This document shows, piece by piece, positions 3,366 through 8,237 of a stretch of DNA of 21,127 bases. Under the pieces are notes generated by a model. It saw nothing but the letters and a program-made list of their open reading frames with translations, was not told where the DNA came from and ran no database searches. Position numbers and translations under genes: made by a program. The stretch is from a virus: positions 1 to 21,127 of IMG/VR virus record IMGVR_UViG_3300002460_000195; one strand, 5' to 3'. Every line of letters begins with the position of its first letter. The first letter of the stretch is position 1.

Positions 3366-3429
3366 GCGTCCGGGGGAACGCTGACTGGCGTGAGAGTGTA
3401 TCATTCGCTGGCTCCTATCCCCCGGACGC
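3366..3429 (+). promoter_or_regulatory. strong stem structure in the leader of paralogue C
   Basis: Bases 3366-3377 (GCGTCCGGGGGA) and 3418-3429 (TCCCCCGGACGC) form a perfect 12-bp stem. A second short hairpin, ACGC at 3378-3381 with GCGT at 3388-3391, would stack directly on it. The element lies in the gap between the stop at 3358 and the GGAGG ribosome site at 3453-3457. It is not followed by a run of T on either strand, so it does not look like a terminator. It could be a leader element, an RNA processing site or a protein-binding hairpin. Confidence 0.5.
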
Positions 3430-3463
3430 CACCCCGTTTCGCTCAACCCATCGGAGGTTTCAG

Positions 3464-3691
3464 ATGAAACTCTTGGTTTACGGAGAAGGCGAGTCAGACC
3501 AAGCTCGCTTGCGCCTGGTTCGAGCGGGTGATTTTATCCGGGTGGTAGTAGTCAATCAGGAAGGATACACGGTTGACCGTGGAGTCTTGGTTCAGTTTCG
3601 ACCAGATGGGACAATGGGTCGTCTGTCTGGTGTCGGTGGGAACCTTGGTTTCCGACTTGATTCTGAAGGAAAAATCAAGTTGGAGGATTAA
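3464..3691 (+). CDS. small paralogous phage protein, copy C
   Basis: The 75-residue product starts at the ATG at 3464 with GGAGG at 3453-3457 seven bases upstream. The frame is open upstream to 3362, but that part covers the stem at 3366-3429 and has no ribosome site. It is the shortest copy: MKLLVYGEG, ARLRLVRAGD, VVVVNQEGYTVDRGVL, FRPDGTM and NLGFRLDSEGKI line up with copies A and B over their whole length. It stops 9 bases before the large structured element at 3701, so transcription of this gene would run into that RNA. Confidence 0.7.
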   Translation: MKLLVYGEGESDQARLRLVRAGDFIRVVVVNQEGYTVDRGVLVQFRPDGTMGRLSGVGGNLGFRLDSEGKIKLED

Positions 3692-3700
3692 GTGAAGTCC

Positions 3701-3904
3701 TCGGGTAAAGCCGCCTGAGCAGGGTAGACAGCGCGGTCTGGTCACGCGCAGCAGCCGGAAGTTGCGCCCGGTTGCGGTGCCAAAGAGGACAGAAGGCTGG
3801 TACACGCTAAGCCGGCAAAACTGTCCCACCGAAAGCGCTAGTCTTGGTAAAGGACGCTTCCCCAGGACACTAGCTGTCTATCCTCCTGAGGTGGCTTTAC
3901 TCGA
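3701..3904 (+). ncRNA. candidate structured RNA 1 (multi-branched, 204 nt)
   Basis: The ends, 3701-3732 and 3873-3904, pair over 32 positions with only two mismatches and three G-U pairs. Inside are: GCGCG 3731-3735 with CGCGC 3745-3749; AGCCGG 3753-3758 with CCGGTT 3768-3773; CGGTG 3775-3779 with CACCG 3827-3831, which encloses GGACAG 3787-3792 with CTGTCC 3821-3826 and GCTGG 3796-3800 with CCGGC 3812-3816; and CTAGT plus CTTGG (3838-3847) with CCAGG plus ACTAG (3862-3873). That is a closed five-helix junction occupying almost the whole gap between two genes. I see no convincing reading frame on the + strand here. It fits no RNA class I can name: it lacks the RNase P, tmRNA and hammerhead core sequences. 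The G-U pairs argue for function as RNA rather than as a DNA palindrome. No own promoter is obvious; it may be cut from the 2590-onward transcript. Confidence 0.6.
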
Positions 3905-3943
3905 TCGGCGGTGTGAAACGATTAACCAATGAAGGTGCCCCCG

Positions 3944-4585
3944 ATGCTTTCCTACCCTAAAATCGACAGCTTGTTTTTACGCGACCTGGATAATAACAAC
4001 AGGTCGTTCCTGGTCGGCAAGTGGGCGCGTGAGGAATTCGAGTATCTGAAAAACCTCCCGTGGAGCTGGACTGAAAAAATCGACGGCATGAATATCCGTG
4101 TAATTTGGGATGGGCGCCAGGTGCATTTTCGGGGCCGAAACGACGGAACCCAAATTCACACGCGACTTGGCGATCACCTTAGGGCTAAGTTCCTCACTAG
4201 CAAGTTGGCGGAGGTTTTCAGTGAGCCGGCGACGCTTTATGGCGAGGGCTACGGCGATAGAATTCAGAAGCTCGGCGCTCAATACCTCCCTTCGCAGGAG
4301 TTCATATTGTTCGATGTTTTTTGCAAGAACTGGCTGCCGCGAGAAGCTGTCACCGAGATCGCAGAAAAGTTGGATTTGCCTGTAGTTCCGGTGGTTGGTG
4401 TTGGCCCGTTGACCATGGCAATTGATTTCGCGGCGGCGGGGTTTTTCTCTCAGGTTGCCGTAACCCCGAAAACGCTCGCTGAGGGAATAGTGATGCGCCC
4501 GCCGATCGAGCTGCAAGATCGCCACGGAGCTCGAATTATAACAAAAGCCAAATTCAAGGATTTTCTCCGCCAGAAGAAACTGTAA
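3944..4585 (+). CDS. RNA ligase (Rnl2/PF09414-type nucleotidyltransferase), short form
   Basis: The 213-residue product shows the covalent nucleotidyltransferase motifs in order: motif I EKIDG at 44-48 with the AMP-accepting Lys45, FRGRND at 62-67, motif III LYGEGYG at 98-104, motif IIIa FILFDVF at 120-126, motif IV EGIVMRPP at 180-187 and motif V ITKAKFKDF at 199-207. Such enzymes seal RNA ends using ATP through enzyme-AMP and RNA-adenylate steps. T4 Rnl2 is 334 residues, so the C-terminal accessory domain is missing here and the protein is nearly the bare catalytic domain. The start at 3944 is preferred because AAGGTG lies six bases upstream; an in-frame ATG at 3929 would add five residues but has no ribosome site. 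It has candidate structured RNAs on both sides, which suggests, without proving, that they are its substrates. Confidence 0.85.
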   Translation: MLSYPKIDSLFLRDLDNNNRSFLVGKWAREEFEYLKNLPWSWTEKIDGMNIRVIWDGRQVHFRGRNDGTQIHTRLGDHLRAKFLTSKLAEVFSEPATLYGEGYGDRIQKLGAQYLPSQEFILFDVFCKNWLPREAVTEIAEKLDLPVVPVVGVGPLTMAIDFAAAGFFSQVAVTPKTLAEGIVMRPPIELQDRHGARIITKAKFKDFLRQKKL

Positions 4586-4753
4586 CTCCCGGCCAGCGGC
4601 GGATTGTAGGCTCCGCTGGTGGTGTGCGTGGCAACCTCCTGGGCAAGAGGCTAAACTGCCCAATCGTCCCTGTCTCCACGCCGGCGGAGAGGTGGTCTCG
4701 CTCAGGCGAGCCGGAGGTTCGATTCCTCCCAGGGGCACTAGGAAAACCGGGGG
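4586..4753 (+). ncRNA. candidate structured RNA 2, with tRNA-like 3' part
   Basis: Directly after the RNA ligase stop, CTCCCGG at 4586-4592 can pair with CCGGGGG at 4747-4753 and close the element. Inside are CCAGCGG 4593-4599 with CCGCTGG 4613-4619, GCGTGG 4626-4631 with CCACGC 4676-4681 enclosing TGGGCA 4640-4645 with TGCCCA 4657-4662, CTCGC 4697-4701 with GCGAG 4706-4710 (loop TCAG), and a tRNA-type T-arm at 4713-4729. The 4586-5106 stretch holds no protein gene that I can support: its short frames have no good ribosome sites and cross these stems. A further 5-bp hairpin lies at 4758-4772. The pairing is read by eye and has not been tested by folding energy or covariation. Confidence 0.45.
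4666..4737 (+). other. tRNA-like segment: T-arm and acceptor stem (degenerate tRNA or attP-like)
   Basis: GGAGG-TTCGATT-CCTCC at 4713-4729 is a standard T-arm with a canonical T-loop. It is followed by CAGGGGC and A at 4730-4737, a seven-base acceptor strand and discriminator base. GTCCCTG at 4666-4672 can pair with that acceptor strand over seven positions (one G-U). Between them TCTCC 4673-4677 with GGAGA 4686-4690 resembles a D-arm, but no proper anticodon arm can be built: the CTCGC/GCGAG hairpin has only a 4-6 base loop around TCAG. CCA is not encoded (CTA instead). Possible readings are a decayed tRNA gene, a tRNA-mimic at the end of RNA 2, or a copy of a host tRNA 3' end serving as a phage attachment core. 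Confidence 0.35.
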
Positions 4754-4776
4754 CGAAGCATGTAGCTCATGCACGG

Positions 4777-4816
4777 TGTATACGATCCTTGACTTTTGTG
4801 AATGTATACGATCCTT
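4777..4816 (+). repeat. two direct repeats TGTATACGATCCTT
   Basis: The 14-base sequence TGTATACGATCCTT occurs at 4777-4790 and again at 4803-4816, a spacing of 26 bases. Each copy contains the palindrome GTATAC. They sit between RNA 2 and RNA 3 in a relatively AT-rich gap, where TTGACT at 4789-4794 could be a weak -35 box. A repeated regulator site or a pair of phage-specific promoter elements for RNA 3 and downstream genes are both possible; no clear sigma70 -10 box is correctly spaced. Confidence 0.5.
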
Positions 4817-4834
4817 ATTGAATCGACATTGAAG

Positions 4835-4995
4835 GAGACTCACAACGCGGCGTGGATGGACACGCATGTCGTCATGGTCGGGGCGGCGACCTCGCCAGTC
4901 GCTAGAGACGTTGTGCTTAGGAGTGGGAATTGGCGTCCCACACGCGGCACAGAAAAGCCTGGAGCTGGTACTCAAGCCCAGTCGTTGTGAATCTC
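4835..4995 (+). ncRNA. candidate structured RNA 3 (161 nt)
   Basis: GAGACTCACAACG at 4835-4847 pairs with CGTTGTGAATCTC at 4983-4995 in 12 of 13 positions. Inside are GCGTG 4850-4854 with CACGC 4861-4865, GCGAC 4886-4890 with GTCGC 4898-4902, TGTGC 4912-4916 with GCACA 4947-4951 enclosing GTGGGA 4923-4928 with TCCCAC 4936-4941, and CTGG 4959-4962 with CCAG 4978-4981. A second CGTTGTG at 4909-4915 could pair with the same 5' CACAACG, so two exclusive folds are possible. The ordered motif ACAGAA, GCTGGTAC, AAGCC occurs here (4949-4978) and in RNA 1 (3789-3813). The following 4996-5095 has no gene or clear signal. Less strongly paired than RNA 1, hence lower confidence. Confidence 0.4.
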
Positions 4996-5095
4996 TCTGA
5001 ATGCCCAAGGATGGGGATAGTGCTCATGGAAGAGCCAGGCTGAGGGGCGGGGCGGTTTTACTTCCCGCATCGTCTCGCTCCAAGGCTTCTTGTTT

Positions 5096-5138
5096 GGAGT
5101 TTCCTGATGGCCTCGATTAGGAGTTTCCTGATGGCCTC
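5096..5138 (+). repeat. 24-bp tandem duplication of a ribosome site and start codon
   Basis: The 19-base GGAGTTTCCTGATGGCCTC is present at 5096-5114 and 5120-5138, a period of 24 bases. Each copy carries a GGAG ribosome site, a seven-base spacer and an ATG (5107 and 5131). As the period is eight codons, the two starts are in the same frame and give products differing by eight residues. This looks like a recent slippage duplication that left two working initiation sites. Confidence 0.85.
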
Positions 5139-5444: not shown

Positions 5445-8237
5445 GTGAAGATTAAACACGTTCCACCGATTGGCCAGCTAACAGCACGATTGGCGATTTG
5501 CGGCGAGGCGCCGGGCCGGGAGGAAGAAGCTCAAGGCATTCCATTCGTCCCGTGGGCGCCGAGCGGTGCAAAGCTGATGCAGCTCGCCCACAACGCGGGC
5601 CTCGTTCGGGCCGACATGTATTTAACCAACGTAATCAAAACCCGCCCGCCCAACAACAACATTTCGACATTTTTCTCCGAAGGGAGCTTTACAGCCCTCG
5701 GCGAACGCTATCGGCGCGAGCTGCTCGACGAACTCCAAGCAGTTGAGTCGCCAGTTGTCCTGGCCGTTGGCTACGTCGCGATGGCGGCCCTGACCACCGA
5801 ACGTCGTCCGATTCACCTCATGCGCGGGTCGCCATTAATCAACCAACAGCTCAACAAAATCATCATCCCAACCCTGCACCCGGCCGGCATCATGCGGTCG
5901 GGTCAGCATATGCAGTATCACCTAATCGAGTGGGATATTCGGAACGCCCTGGCTCTCGCAGCCGAGGGGGGAATTAGCGCCCTGCCGTCACCGAATTACG
6001 TCCTCGATCCGAGCTTTGAAACCGCCATGGCCTGGCTGGCCGAGTTGCCCAGCCTGCCTGAATTCGCCTTTGATATTGAAACCAGCAGTAACGAGCTGAC
6101 TCACATTTCGTTCACTCGTGCCCTGGACGACGTGATTTCAATTCCCCTCGGAAAATTCAACCCGGCTCAGCGGAAATCCATTCTCAACGGCATTCAGACT
6201 GCTTTGGCGGCCCCGGGGCCGCGCAAGATCACCCAAAACGGCAACTACGACACGTTCTTTCTCAAGTGGCATTGCAACATCGAAACCGATCTTTCCACCC
6301 TTGACGACGCCATGGTGGCGAACAGCGTCCTATTTCCGCAACTTGCGCCAGCAAGCGCGCCGGACGCGGCAACCGGAAAATCACTTGCAATGTTGGCCTC
6401 CTTGTGGGGCCGAGAGGTTTATTACAAAGACGACGGCGAAATCACCAAGTTTGACGGTGATTCGCTCGGCTATCAGCTCTACAATGCCAAAGACTCTGCC
6501 GTTGTTCATCGTTGCTGGCGACGCCTAAAAACCTTCCTCGACGCCGATCCGGCATTCCGCTACACTTACGACTTCACGATGGCCCGATTGCCGGCGATTC
6601 AAGCGATGCAAACTAATGGCTTTAGGGTTGACCGGCGCGGGCTCGCCCTGGCCCGCGCGGCGATTCTCGCCGAACTGACCGAGTTGAGCGCCGAACTAAA
6701 CGCCCTTGCTCAACCTCGATTGCGGCTTCAACTCGATGCCGAGCTCGACACCCTTCGCGACCTAGAAGTCAAGCGAAAAGCGGCTCGCGCCGAGGGCGCG
6801 GAAACAAAGCCGCTAACCAAGCGGATTACCGCACTCCGAACGTACCTTAGGCAATGGAGTGCGACCGGTTCCGACGGCAAGCCTGAACTCGGCGCGTGGG
6901 AATTGCCGGTGAATTCGTCCGCCAAGCTCTGTACGTATTTTTACGATTGGCTCGGTTTGCCTGAATACACTGCCGTGCGAAAAAACTCAGCCGGCGTGTC
7001 TCGGACACGGTCTGTCAACGATGTTGCGTTGACAAAGTTTCTCCGCCCGACCGAAGATCGCCCAGCCGTTGCCGAGGCGGCCCCAATCCAGAAAATCCGC
7101 GAGCGCGGGAAGCTGATTTCAACGTACATCGACATCGACTACATGCCCAACACCGGCCGGTATCAGGCGTCGTTCAACCTGCGCGGAACCTGGACGGGGC
7201 GCTACAGCAGCAGCCAGTTGTTTTTCCGGTATGGCTCGAATCAACAGAATATTCCGCCCCGGATTCGGCAGTATTACCTCCCAGACGAAGCCACCCCCTC
7301 CCGCCTACCGTTCTTCGTCGAGTACGACGGCAAACAGGCCGAGTGGGTTGTCGTTGCGCACGAAGCCAACGAGCCCCGAATGATTGAGGTCATTCAGACC
7401 CGCCGAGATCCCCACGTTGCCACCGCACAATACATGTGGGGTGTGAGTGAGGCTGCGATTGTTGCCGAAGCCAAGGCCGTTGGCAAATCGACATCGCCCG
7501 AAGTAATTGCCGCAGCTCGCGCTGCGCTTTCCAGCCGATTCCCGGAGCTCGCAGCGCCTGACCTTCCTCGCAACATGACACTTAGGCAGGGTGGCAAAAA
7601 GGACAACCACGCTGGAAACTATCGCGAAGGCCCAGAAACTTATGCGCAAGTCAATGGCGTCACTCTTCGCGAAGCTCGACTGCGGTTGTCAAGATACTCG
7701 GAGGTCGTTTATCCCGGCCTCTTGACATGGTGGGAAAACACAGACTTTCGTGTTCGGCACCAAGGCTTTCTCATCAATCCGCTCGGTCGGAAACTGCCGA
7801 TTCTCGGCCCGACCCACGGAAAGGGCGCCGAACACACGTTTAAGCAGGGCTATGCGGCAATTCCGCAATCGGTTGTTCACGACATTGCGATGATTGGCCA
7901 ATTGAGGGTTTTGGCCATGCAGCCAACTGTGTTGTTGTTGTCTGACAACCACGACAGCATCTTGGTTCAGCATTTCCTTGATCCCCGAGTTGGCCCCGAA
8001 GCCTGTTCGGAAAAGCTGCTAAGCGAAGTTAGCGCCGTCGTTTCGGCCTTGACGGTTCCGTTGTCGTCTGTCGCTGGGGAGTATGTTATTGAAATCGAGC
8101 CGAAGCTGGGACTTAATTGGGCCGACGCAAATGAGGAAAATCCGCGTGGCCTGCGCGAACTTGAGCTGACCCCCGACGGTGCATCGGCGGCAGTTTCGTG
8201 GCTTTTGGAGAACACCGCGAGGATAACCTGCGAATGA
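5445..8237 (+). CDS. DNA polymerase, family A, with N-terminal uracil-DNA-glycosylase-like domain
   Basis: The 930-residue product replicates the phage genome. Residues 15-150 match family 4 UDG motifs: GEAPGREEE (20-28), YLTNVIKTRPPNN (59-71) and TLHPAG (143-148); the cysteine of the usual KCRPP motif is threonine and no CxxC is present, so an iron-sulfur cluster is unlikely. The proofreading exonuclease has FDIET (Asp210, Glu212), NGNYD (Asp269) and YNAKD (Asp350), all conserved. The polymerase part shows TGRYSS (584-589), QNIP (601-604), motif A YDGKQAEW with Asp628, O-helix R714-K718-H722-Y726 and motif C HDS at 836-838. His722 occupies the E. coli Phe762 position and Ser838 replaces the Glu of HDE. 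The GTG start has GAGG seven bases upstream. A UDG-like domain on a phage polymerase is known from the SPO1 type. Confidence 0.93.
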   Translation: MKIKHVPPIGQLTARLAICGEAPGREEEAQGIPFVPWAPSGAKLMQLAHNAGLVRADMYLTNVIKTRPPNNNISTFFSEGSFTALGERYRRELLDELQAVESPVVLAVGYVAMAALTTERRPIHLMRGSPLINQQLNKIIIPTLHPAGIMRSGQHMQYHLIEWDIRNALALAAEGGISALPSPNYVLDPSFETAMAWLAELPSLPEFAFDIETSSNELTHISFTRALDDVISIPLGKFNPAQRKSILNGIQTALAAPGPRKITQNGNYDTFFLKWHCNIETDLSTLDDAMVANSVLFPQLAPASAPDAATGKSLAMLASLWGREVYYKDDGEITKFDGDSLGYQLYNAKDSAVVHRCWRRLKTFLDADPAFRYTYDFTMARLPAIQAMQTNGFRVDRRGLALARAAILAELTELSAELNALAQPRLRLQLDAELDTLRDLEVKRKAARAEGAETKPLTKRITALRTYLRQWSATGSDGKPELGAWELPVNSSAKLCTYFYDWLGLPEYTAVRKNSAGVSRTRSVNDVALTKFLRPTEDRPAVAEAAPIQKIRERGKLISTYIDIDYMPNTGRYQASFNLRGTWTGRYSSSQLFFRYGSNQQNIPPRIRQYYLPDEATPSRLPFFVEYDGKQAEWVVVAHEANEPRMIEVIQTRRDPHVATAQYMWGVSEAAIVAEAKAVGKSTSPEVIAAARAALSSRFPELAAPDLPRNMTLRQGGKKDNHAGNYREGPETYAQVNGVTLREARLRLSRYSEVVYPGLLTWWENTDFRVRHQGFLINPLGRKLPILGPTHGKGAEHTFKQGYAAIPQSVVHDIAMIGQLRVLAMQPTVLLLSDNHDSILVQHFLDPRVGPEACSEKLLSEVSAVVSALTVPLSSVAGEYVIEIEPKLGLNWADANEENPRGLRELELTPDGASAAVSWLLENTARITCE

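Follow-up and report, generated by a model that had tools for sequence, protein, structure and literature searches.

The stretch of DNA analysed here, hereafter the window, is a 21,127-nt virus record that represents a fragment of a tailed phage. Its plus strand carries a block of genes for a Sak4-like ATPase, small proteins, an RNA ligase, a family A DNA polymerase and a dATP/dGTP diphosphohydrolase-like protein, and the structural genes form a block on the minus strand; no packaging gene was identified in the window and no reverse transcriptase was found. A structured element of 204 nt fills the intergenic gap at 3692-3943 between a gene of 75 codons and the RNA ligase gene, all on the plus strand, ending 39 nt upstream of the ligase start, and no plus-strand ORF of at least 60 codons overlaps it. 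The features of the locus are as follows.

3464-3691, plus strand: gene of 75 codons, with GGAGG before its ATG at 3464, ending 9 nt before P1
3701-3732, plus strand: 5' arm of the closing stem P1, TCGGGTAAAGCCGCCTGAGCAGGGTAGACAGC, forming 30 pairs with 3873-3904 at a mean pairing probability of 0.96
3733-3838, plus strand: P2 domain, made of junction helices (3733-3742/3828-3838) with two hairpins on top
3746-3780, plus strand: hairpin P2a, 12 bp with the 9-nt loop AAGUUGCGC, probability 0.84
3787-3826, plus strand: hairpin P2b, 6+6 bp with the 9-nt loop ACACGCUAA, probability 0.99-1.00
3841-3868, plus strand: hairpin P3, 7+3 bp, containing the second GGTAAAG (3846-3852), probability 0.87-0.95
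3873-3904, plus strand: 3' arm of P1, GCTGTCTATCCTCCTGAGGTGGCTTTACTCGA, with TCGGCGGTGTG coming next
3944-4585, plus strand: RNA ligase of 213 aa with an Rnl2-type catalytic domain (PF09414, E 1.9e-18; phrog_548; T4 Rnl2 profile, 4.5e-13)

The 75-codon gene is one of three small paralogous plus-strand genes without an assigned function (2266-2565, 2615-2860 and 3464-3691; 35-43% identical to the first), a relative of which adjoins the polymerase of another locus, L142. A different gap of the same operon, at 3366-3430 on the plus strand, is filled by a perfect 12-bp inverted repeat (GCGTCCGGGGGA / TCCCCCGGACGC).

P1 had been predicted as a long stem with two mismatches and three G-U pairs, and this description proved exact: the 32 positions comprise 30 pairs, three of which are G-U, and two single mismatches (G-G and C-C) situated mid-stem. 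The interior helices that were predicted with it are also present, the hairpins P2a, P2b and P3 having pairing probabilities of 0.84-1.00 overall, though the two junction helices of P2, of 4 bp each, are weak (only 0.43-0.49). Folded on the plus strand, the 204 nt reach a minimum free energy of -107.9 kcal/mol (z -7.0; shuffle mean -75.1), which none of 200 shuffles matches, and the structure is unchanged when folded within surrounding stretches of 401 and 737 nt. The 140-nt interior by itself folds on this strand at -56.1 kcal/mol, a marginal value as 9 of 200 shuffles are as stable; the excess stability is located mostly in the closing stem P1 and not in the interior.

Structures of this stability are rare. 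When compared with 5,000 random 204-nt windows of related viral DNA, folded on both strands with GC-corrected energies, the element ranks 2 of 10,000 background folds, the sole better one being a tandem repeat in L059. A helix scan over 3.6 Mb (both strands counted) detected, outside tandem repeats, an equal-scoring ungapped helix at L015 only. The element was not ranked high in a sliding fold scan with windows of 150 nt, because P1 spans 204 nt.

The original prediction took the G-U pairs as a sign of selection on RNA. As the three transitions of a plain DNA inverted repeat would all land on the G-U side with a chance of 1/8, this part of the argument is weak, whereas the structured RNA on the plus strand that it was meant to establish is supported on other grounds. 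The minus strand folds at -86.3 kcal/mol (z -2.9), 21.6 kcal/mol behind the plus strand, an asymmetry that 4.5% of random windows equal, and the interior is more stable than its shuffles on the plus strand and not on the minus strand. Since this asymmetry, the interior excess limited to the plus strand and the co-direction with the flanking genes all point to the plus strand, an RNA made from it is favored; theirs is a better argument than that of the G-U pairs, still a modest one that falls short of proof. The two occurrences of GGTAAAG had moreover been thought to offer the 3' arm a second partner. At least one repeated 7-mer occurs in 66% of shuffles, so that chance accounts for the double GGTAAAG, and when GTAAAG (3847-3852) is made to pair with CTTTAC (3895-3900), the fold reaches -78.7 vs -107.9 kcal/mol, a cost of 29 kcal/mol. 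We rejected the proposed switch on both counts, and with this one alternative considered, the element has no two exclusive structures of similar energy such as define a riboswitch-like leader.

Rfam 15 returned no match at the gathering threshold in the whole window, and relaxing the limit to an E of 10 brought up nothing but unrelated noise around the element, which agrees with the initial impression that it belongs to no recognized class and supports a structured plus-strand RNA outside any Rfam family. Neither tRNA nor tmRNA was found in 3701-3904 by ARAGORN or Rfam, there is no second copy of the element in the window, and blastn against phages and plasmids produced no similar record. Exact and gapped stem/loop patterns, run over viral contigs and genome contigs, yielded look-alikes only, which we dismissed as chance matches once they had been checked with blastn, a selection of them by folding and most of them with a covariance model. 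The element is absent from 80 loci with relatives of the RNA ligase (by blastn, nhmmer, helix scan and the covariance model R1) and from 80 loci with relatives of the polymerase (by blastn, helix scan and R1), R1 being built from a single sequence and hence of little power for remote homologues. Identity to the nearest relatives is 46-49% for the ligase and reaches about 34% for the polymerase. The titles and abstracts covered by a literature search held nothing bearing on the element. As no homologue emerged by nucleotide, gapped-pattern, stem or covariance-model search, we consider the fold an orphan, close relatives of which may exist beyond the sequences searched. Its novelty is a matter of absent matches, which for a single sequence are weak evidence of a new class, and we regard the element as a real and striking structure, plausibly an RNA, that stands as an orphan without evolutionary support. 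The L015 helix mentioned above belongs to a viral contig in which, as read by eye, integron attC-like sites (GTTAGGC ... GCCTAACGCCGTGTTAAGCGG) flank a 170-nt cassette (L015:3612-3990) that sits just upstream of an RNA ligase; the stem was rejected as a relative of the element, being read as the boundary of this cassette.

RNase III requires roughly two helical turns, which the 30 pairs of P1 exceed, many of its sites have mid-stem mismatches, and its substrates include the stalks that enclose bacterial rRNAs as well as the intergenic hairpins of T7-like phages. We propose, with a probability of roughly 0.4, that P1 serves a phage operon transcript as a processing stalk of the RNase III type; cleavage there would cut out a three-hairpin RNA and set the ligase message free. 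Assuming that the intergenic gap is transcribed as part of a plus-strand operon transcript, it would contain a stem with 30 of its 32 positions paired, compared with the about 20 bp or more expected of an RNase III substrate. Host RNase III would cut the double-stranded P1, releasing a compact and presumably stable three-hairpin RNA, about 170-200 nt long, and the same cut would divide the transcript into one message for the small upstream gene and another for the RNA ligase. As neither a sigma-70-type promoter-like match nor a terminator-like match (a GC-rich hairpin with a U-run) was found at the element, read-through and processing fit better than an independent gene, and with no T-run after its 3' arm, P1 does not qualify as an intrinsic terminator. 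Since the interior only marginally beats its shuffles, the RNA enclosed by the stem may be without a function of its own. That no similar element was found in related phages sharing the ligase or the polymerase counts against the processing reading, and as no relative was found, any function given to the element remains a guess.

The likeness to generally known systems is partial. The RNase III stems of bacterial pre-rRNA and of the early transcript of T7-like phages share with the element a long stem mismatched in its middle, co-directional genes and the lack of a terminator, yet a T7 site is a plain hairpin about 60 nt long, whereas here the stem encloses a 140-nt domain of three hairpins and the cleavage is a proposed one; as a domain is enclosed, the rRNA stalk is the closer likeness. 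The packaging RNA (pRNA) of phi29 resembles the element in its size of about 170-200 nt, its closed terminal helix and its branched interior, but the element lies outside all Rfam families and next to replication and RNA-repair genes. Similarly, the retron msr-msd RNA is structured, closed by an inverted repeat and adjoins an enzyme gene, but the enzyme encoded beside the element is an RNA ligase, not a reverse transcriptase.

The foremost alternative to a processing stalk, which we hold to be unlikely, perhaps a one-in-four matter, is that no RNA is released and the element acts only in cis, as a leader of the ligase message that stabilizes it or controls its translation. The mere 39 nt to the ligase start would suit such a leader, and in a different locus a 17-bp hairpin directly before the RNA ligase (L026:3906-3994) holds the ribosome-binding site inside its 3' arm. 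In the window, however, the ligase most probably starts at ATG 3944, preceded by AAGGTG at 3932-3937 (an in-frame ATG farther upstream, at 3929, is the less probable start), and this ribosome-binding site is not covered by P1; no switch is visible, considering the price of the only alternative pairing proposed, and most other ligase genes are without a leader of this kind. Less credible is an independent trans-acting small RNA of the phage with a promoter and function of its own, such as binding a host or phage protein: the compact three-hairpin domain with its high pairing probabilities and the absence of an overlapping long ORF would agree with it; against it, the element has neither a promoter-like match nor a terminator, no relatives were found and the interior fold is marginal.

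We also find it improbable that the element is a DNA inverted repeat, either what is left of a small mobile element whose ends span 32 positions or a replication or hairpin site. A long imperfect inverted repeat does surround 140 nt, and the similar-looking repeat of L015 corresponds, by eye, to the ends of attC-like sites, a DNA feature; against this, the fold differs between the strands, all three transitions are G-U on the plus strand, the window holds one copy only, and by eye neither a flanking duplication nor the attC core sites RYYYAAC / GTTRRRY were seen in 3701-3904. A bolder extension of the processing stalk, to which we attach very little weight, would make a module of the RNA and the ligase. 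The cut in P1 would leave a 5'-phosphate and a 3'-hydroxyl side by side in the duplex, a nick of the kind that Rnl2-type ligases seal, and resealing of these ends might yield a structured RNA that is circular or sealed again, perhaps a decoy against a host RNA-targeting defence. Least probable of all is an unusually stable stretch without function: that conservation could not be demonstrated speaks for it, but a z of -7.0, a rank of 2 among 10,000 folds and the exact fit to the intergenic gap speak against chance.

Should the RNA be made, it would be a phage RNA outside the described families, encoded next to an RNA-repair enzyme. The ligase aligns with positions 16-231 of the T4 RNA ligase 2 structure sequence, which constitute the catalytic domain, and with its 213 aa is presumably too short to include the C-terminal domain of Rnl2. 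After near-duplicates were removed by hand, a tRNA gene was located within 100 nt of the related ligase gene in 7 of 78 loci (L014, L035, L037, L046, L049, L056 and L075), compared with 1.0 expected from random tRNA placement in the same loci (p about 0.0005). The window itself has a tRNA-like element at 4666-4738 on the plus strand, 80 nt after the ligase, with a 7-bp acceptor, a D-like arm, an intact T-arm (GGAGGTTCGATTCCTCC) and a 4-nt loop at the anticodon position; its score with the Rfam tRNA model is 20.9 bits (E 0.086 over all families), short of the 29 bits set as cut-off. The adjacency of tRNA genes in related loci, taken with this downstream element, suggests from sequence that the ligase works on tRNA or tRNA-like RNA, and for the same reasons the locus may be a small phage neighborhood of RNA repair or RNA decoys. 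For the 204-nt RNA the tRNA neighborhood is a possible context and no more.

The tRNA-like element is housed in about 500 nt with little coding sign (4586-5106, plus strand), in which two exact copies of GTATACGATCCTT occur at 4778 and 4804, and just past this stretch a 24-nt tandem duplication surrounds a start codon (5093-5138). Rfam has no match for a structured RNA downstream of the RNA ligase of another locus (L038:2527-2690), which is closed by a long stem and has a hairpin resembling a T-arm. The polymerase gene of the window (5445-8237, plus strand) encodes an N-terminal uracil-DNA-glycosylase-like domain fused to the family A DNA polymerase, with the glycosylase-like part also aligning in L007 and L008.
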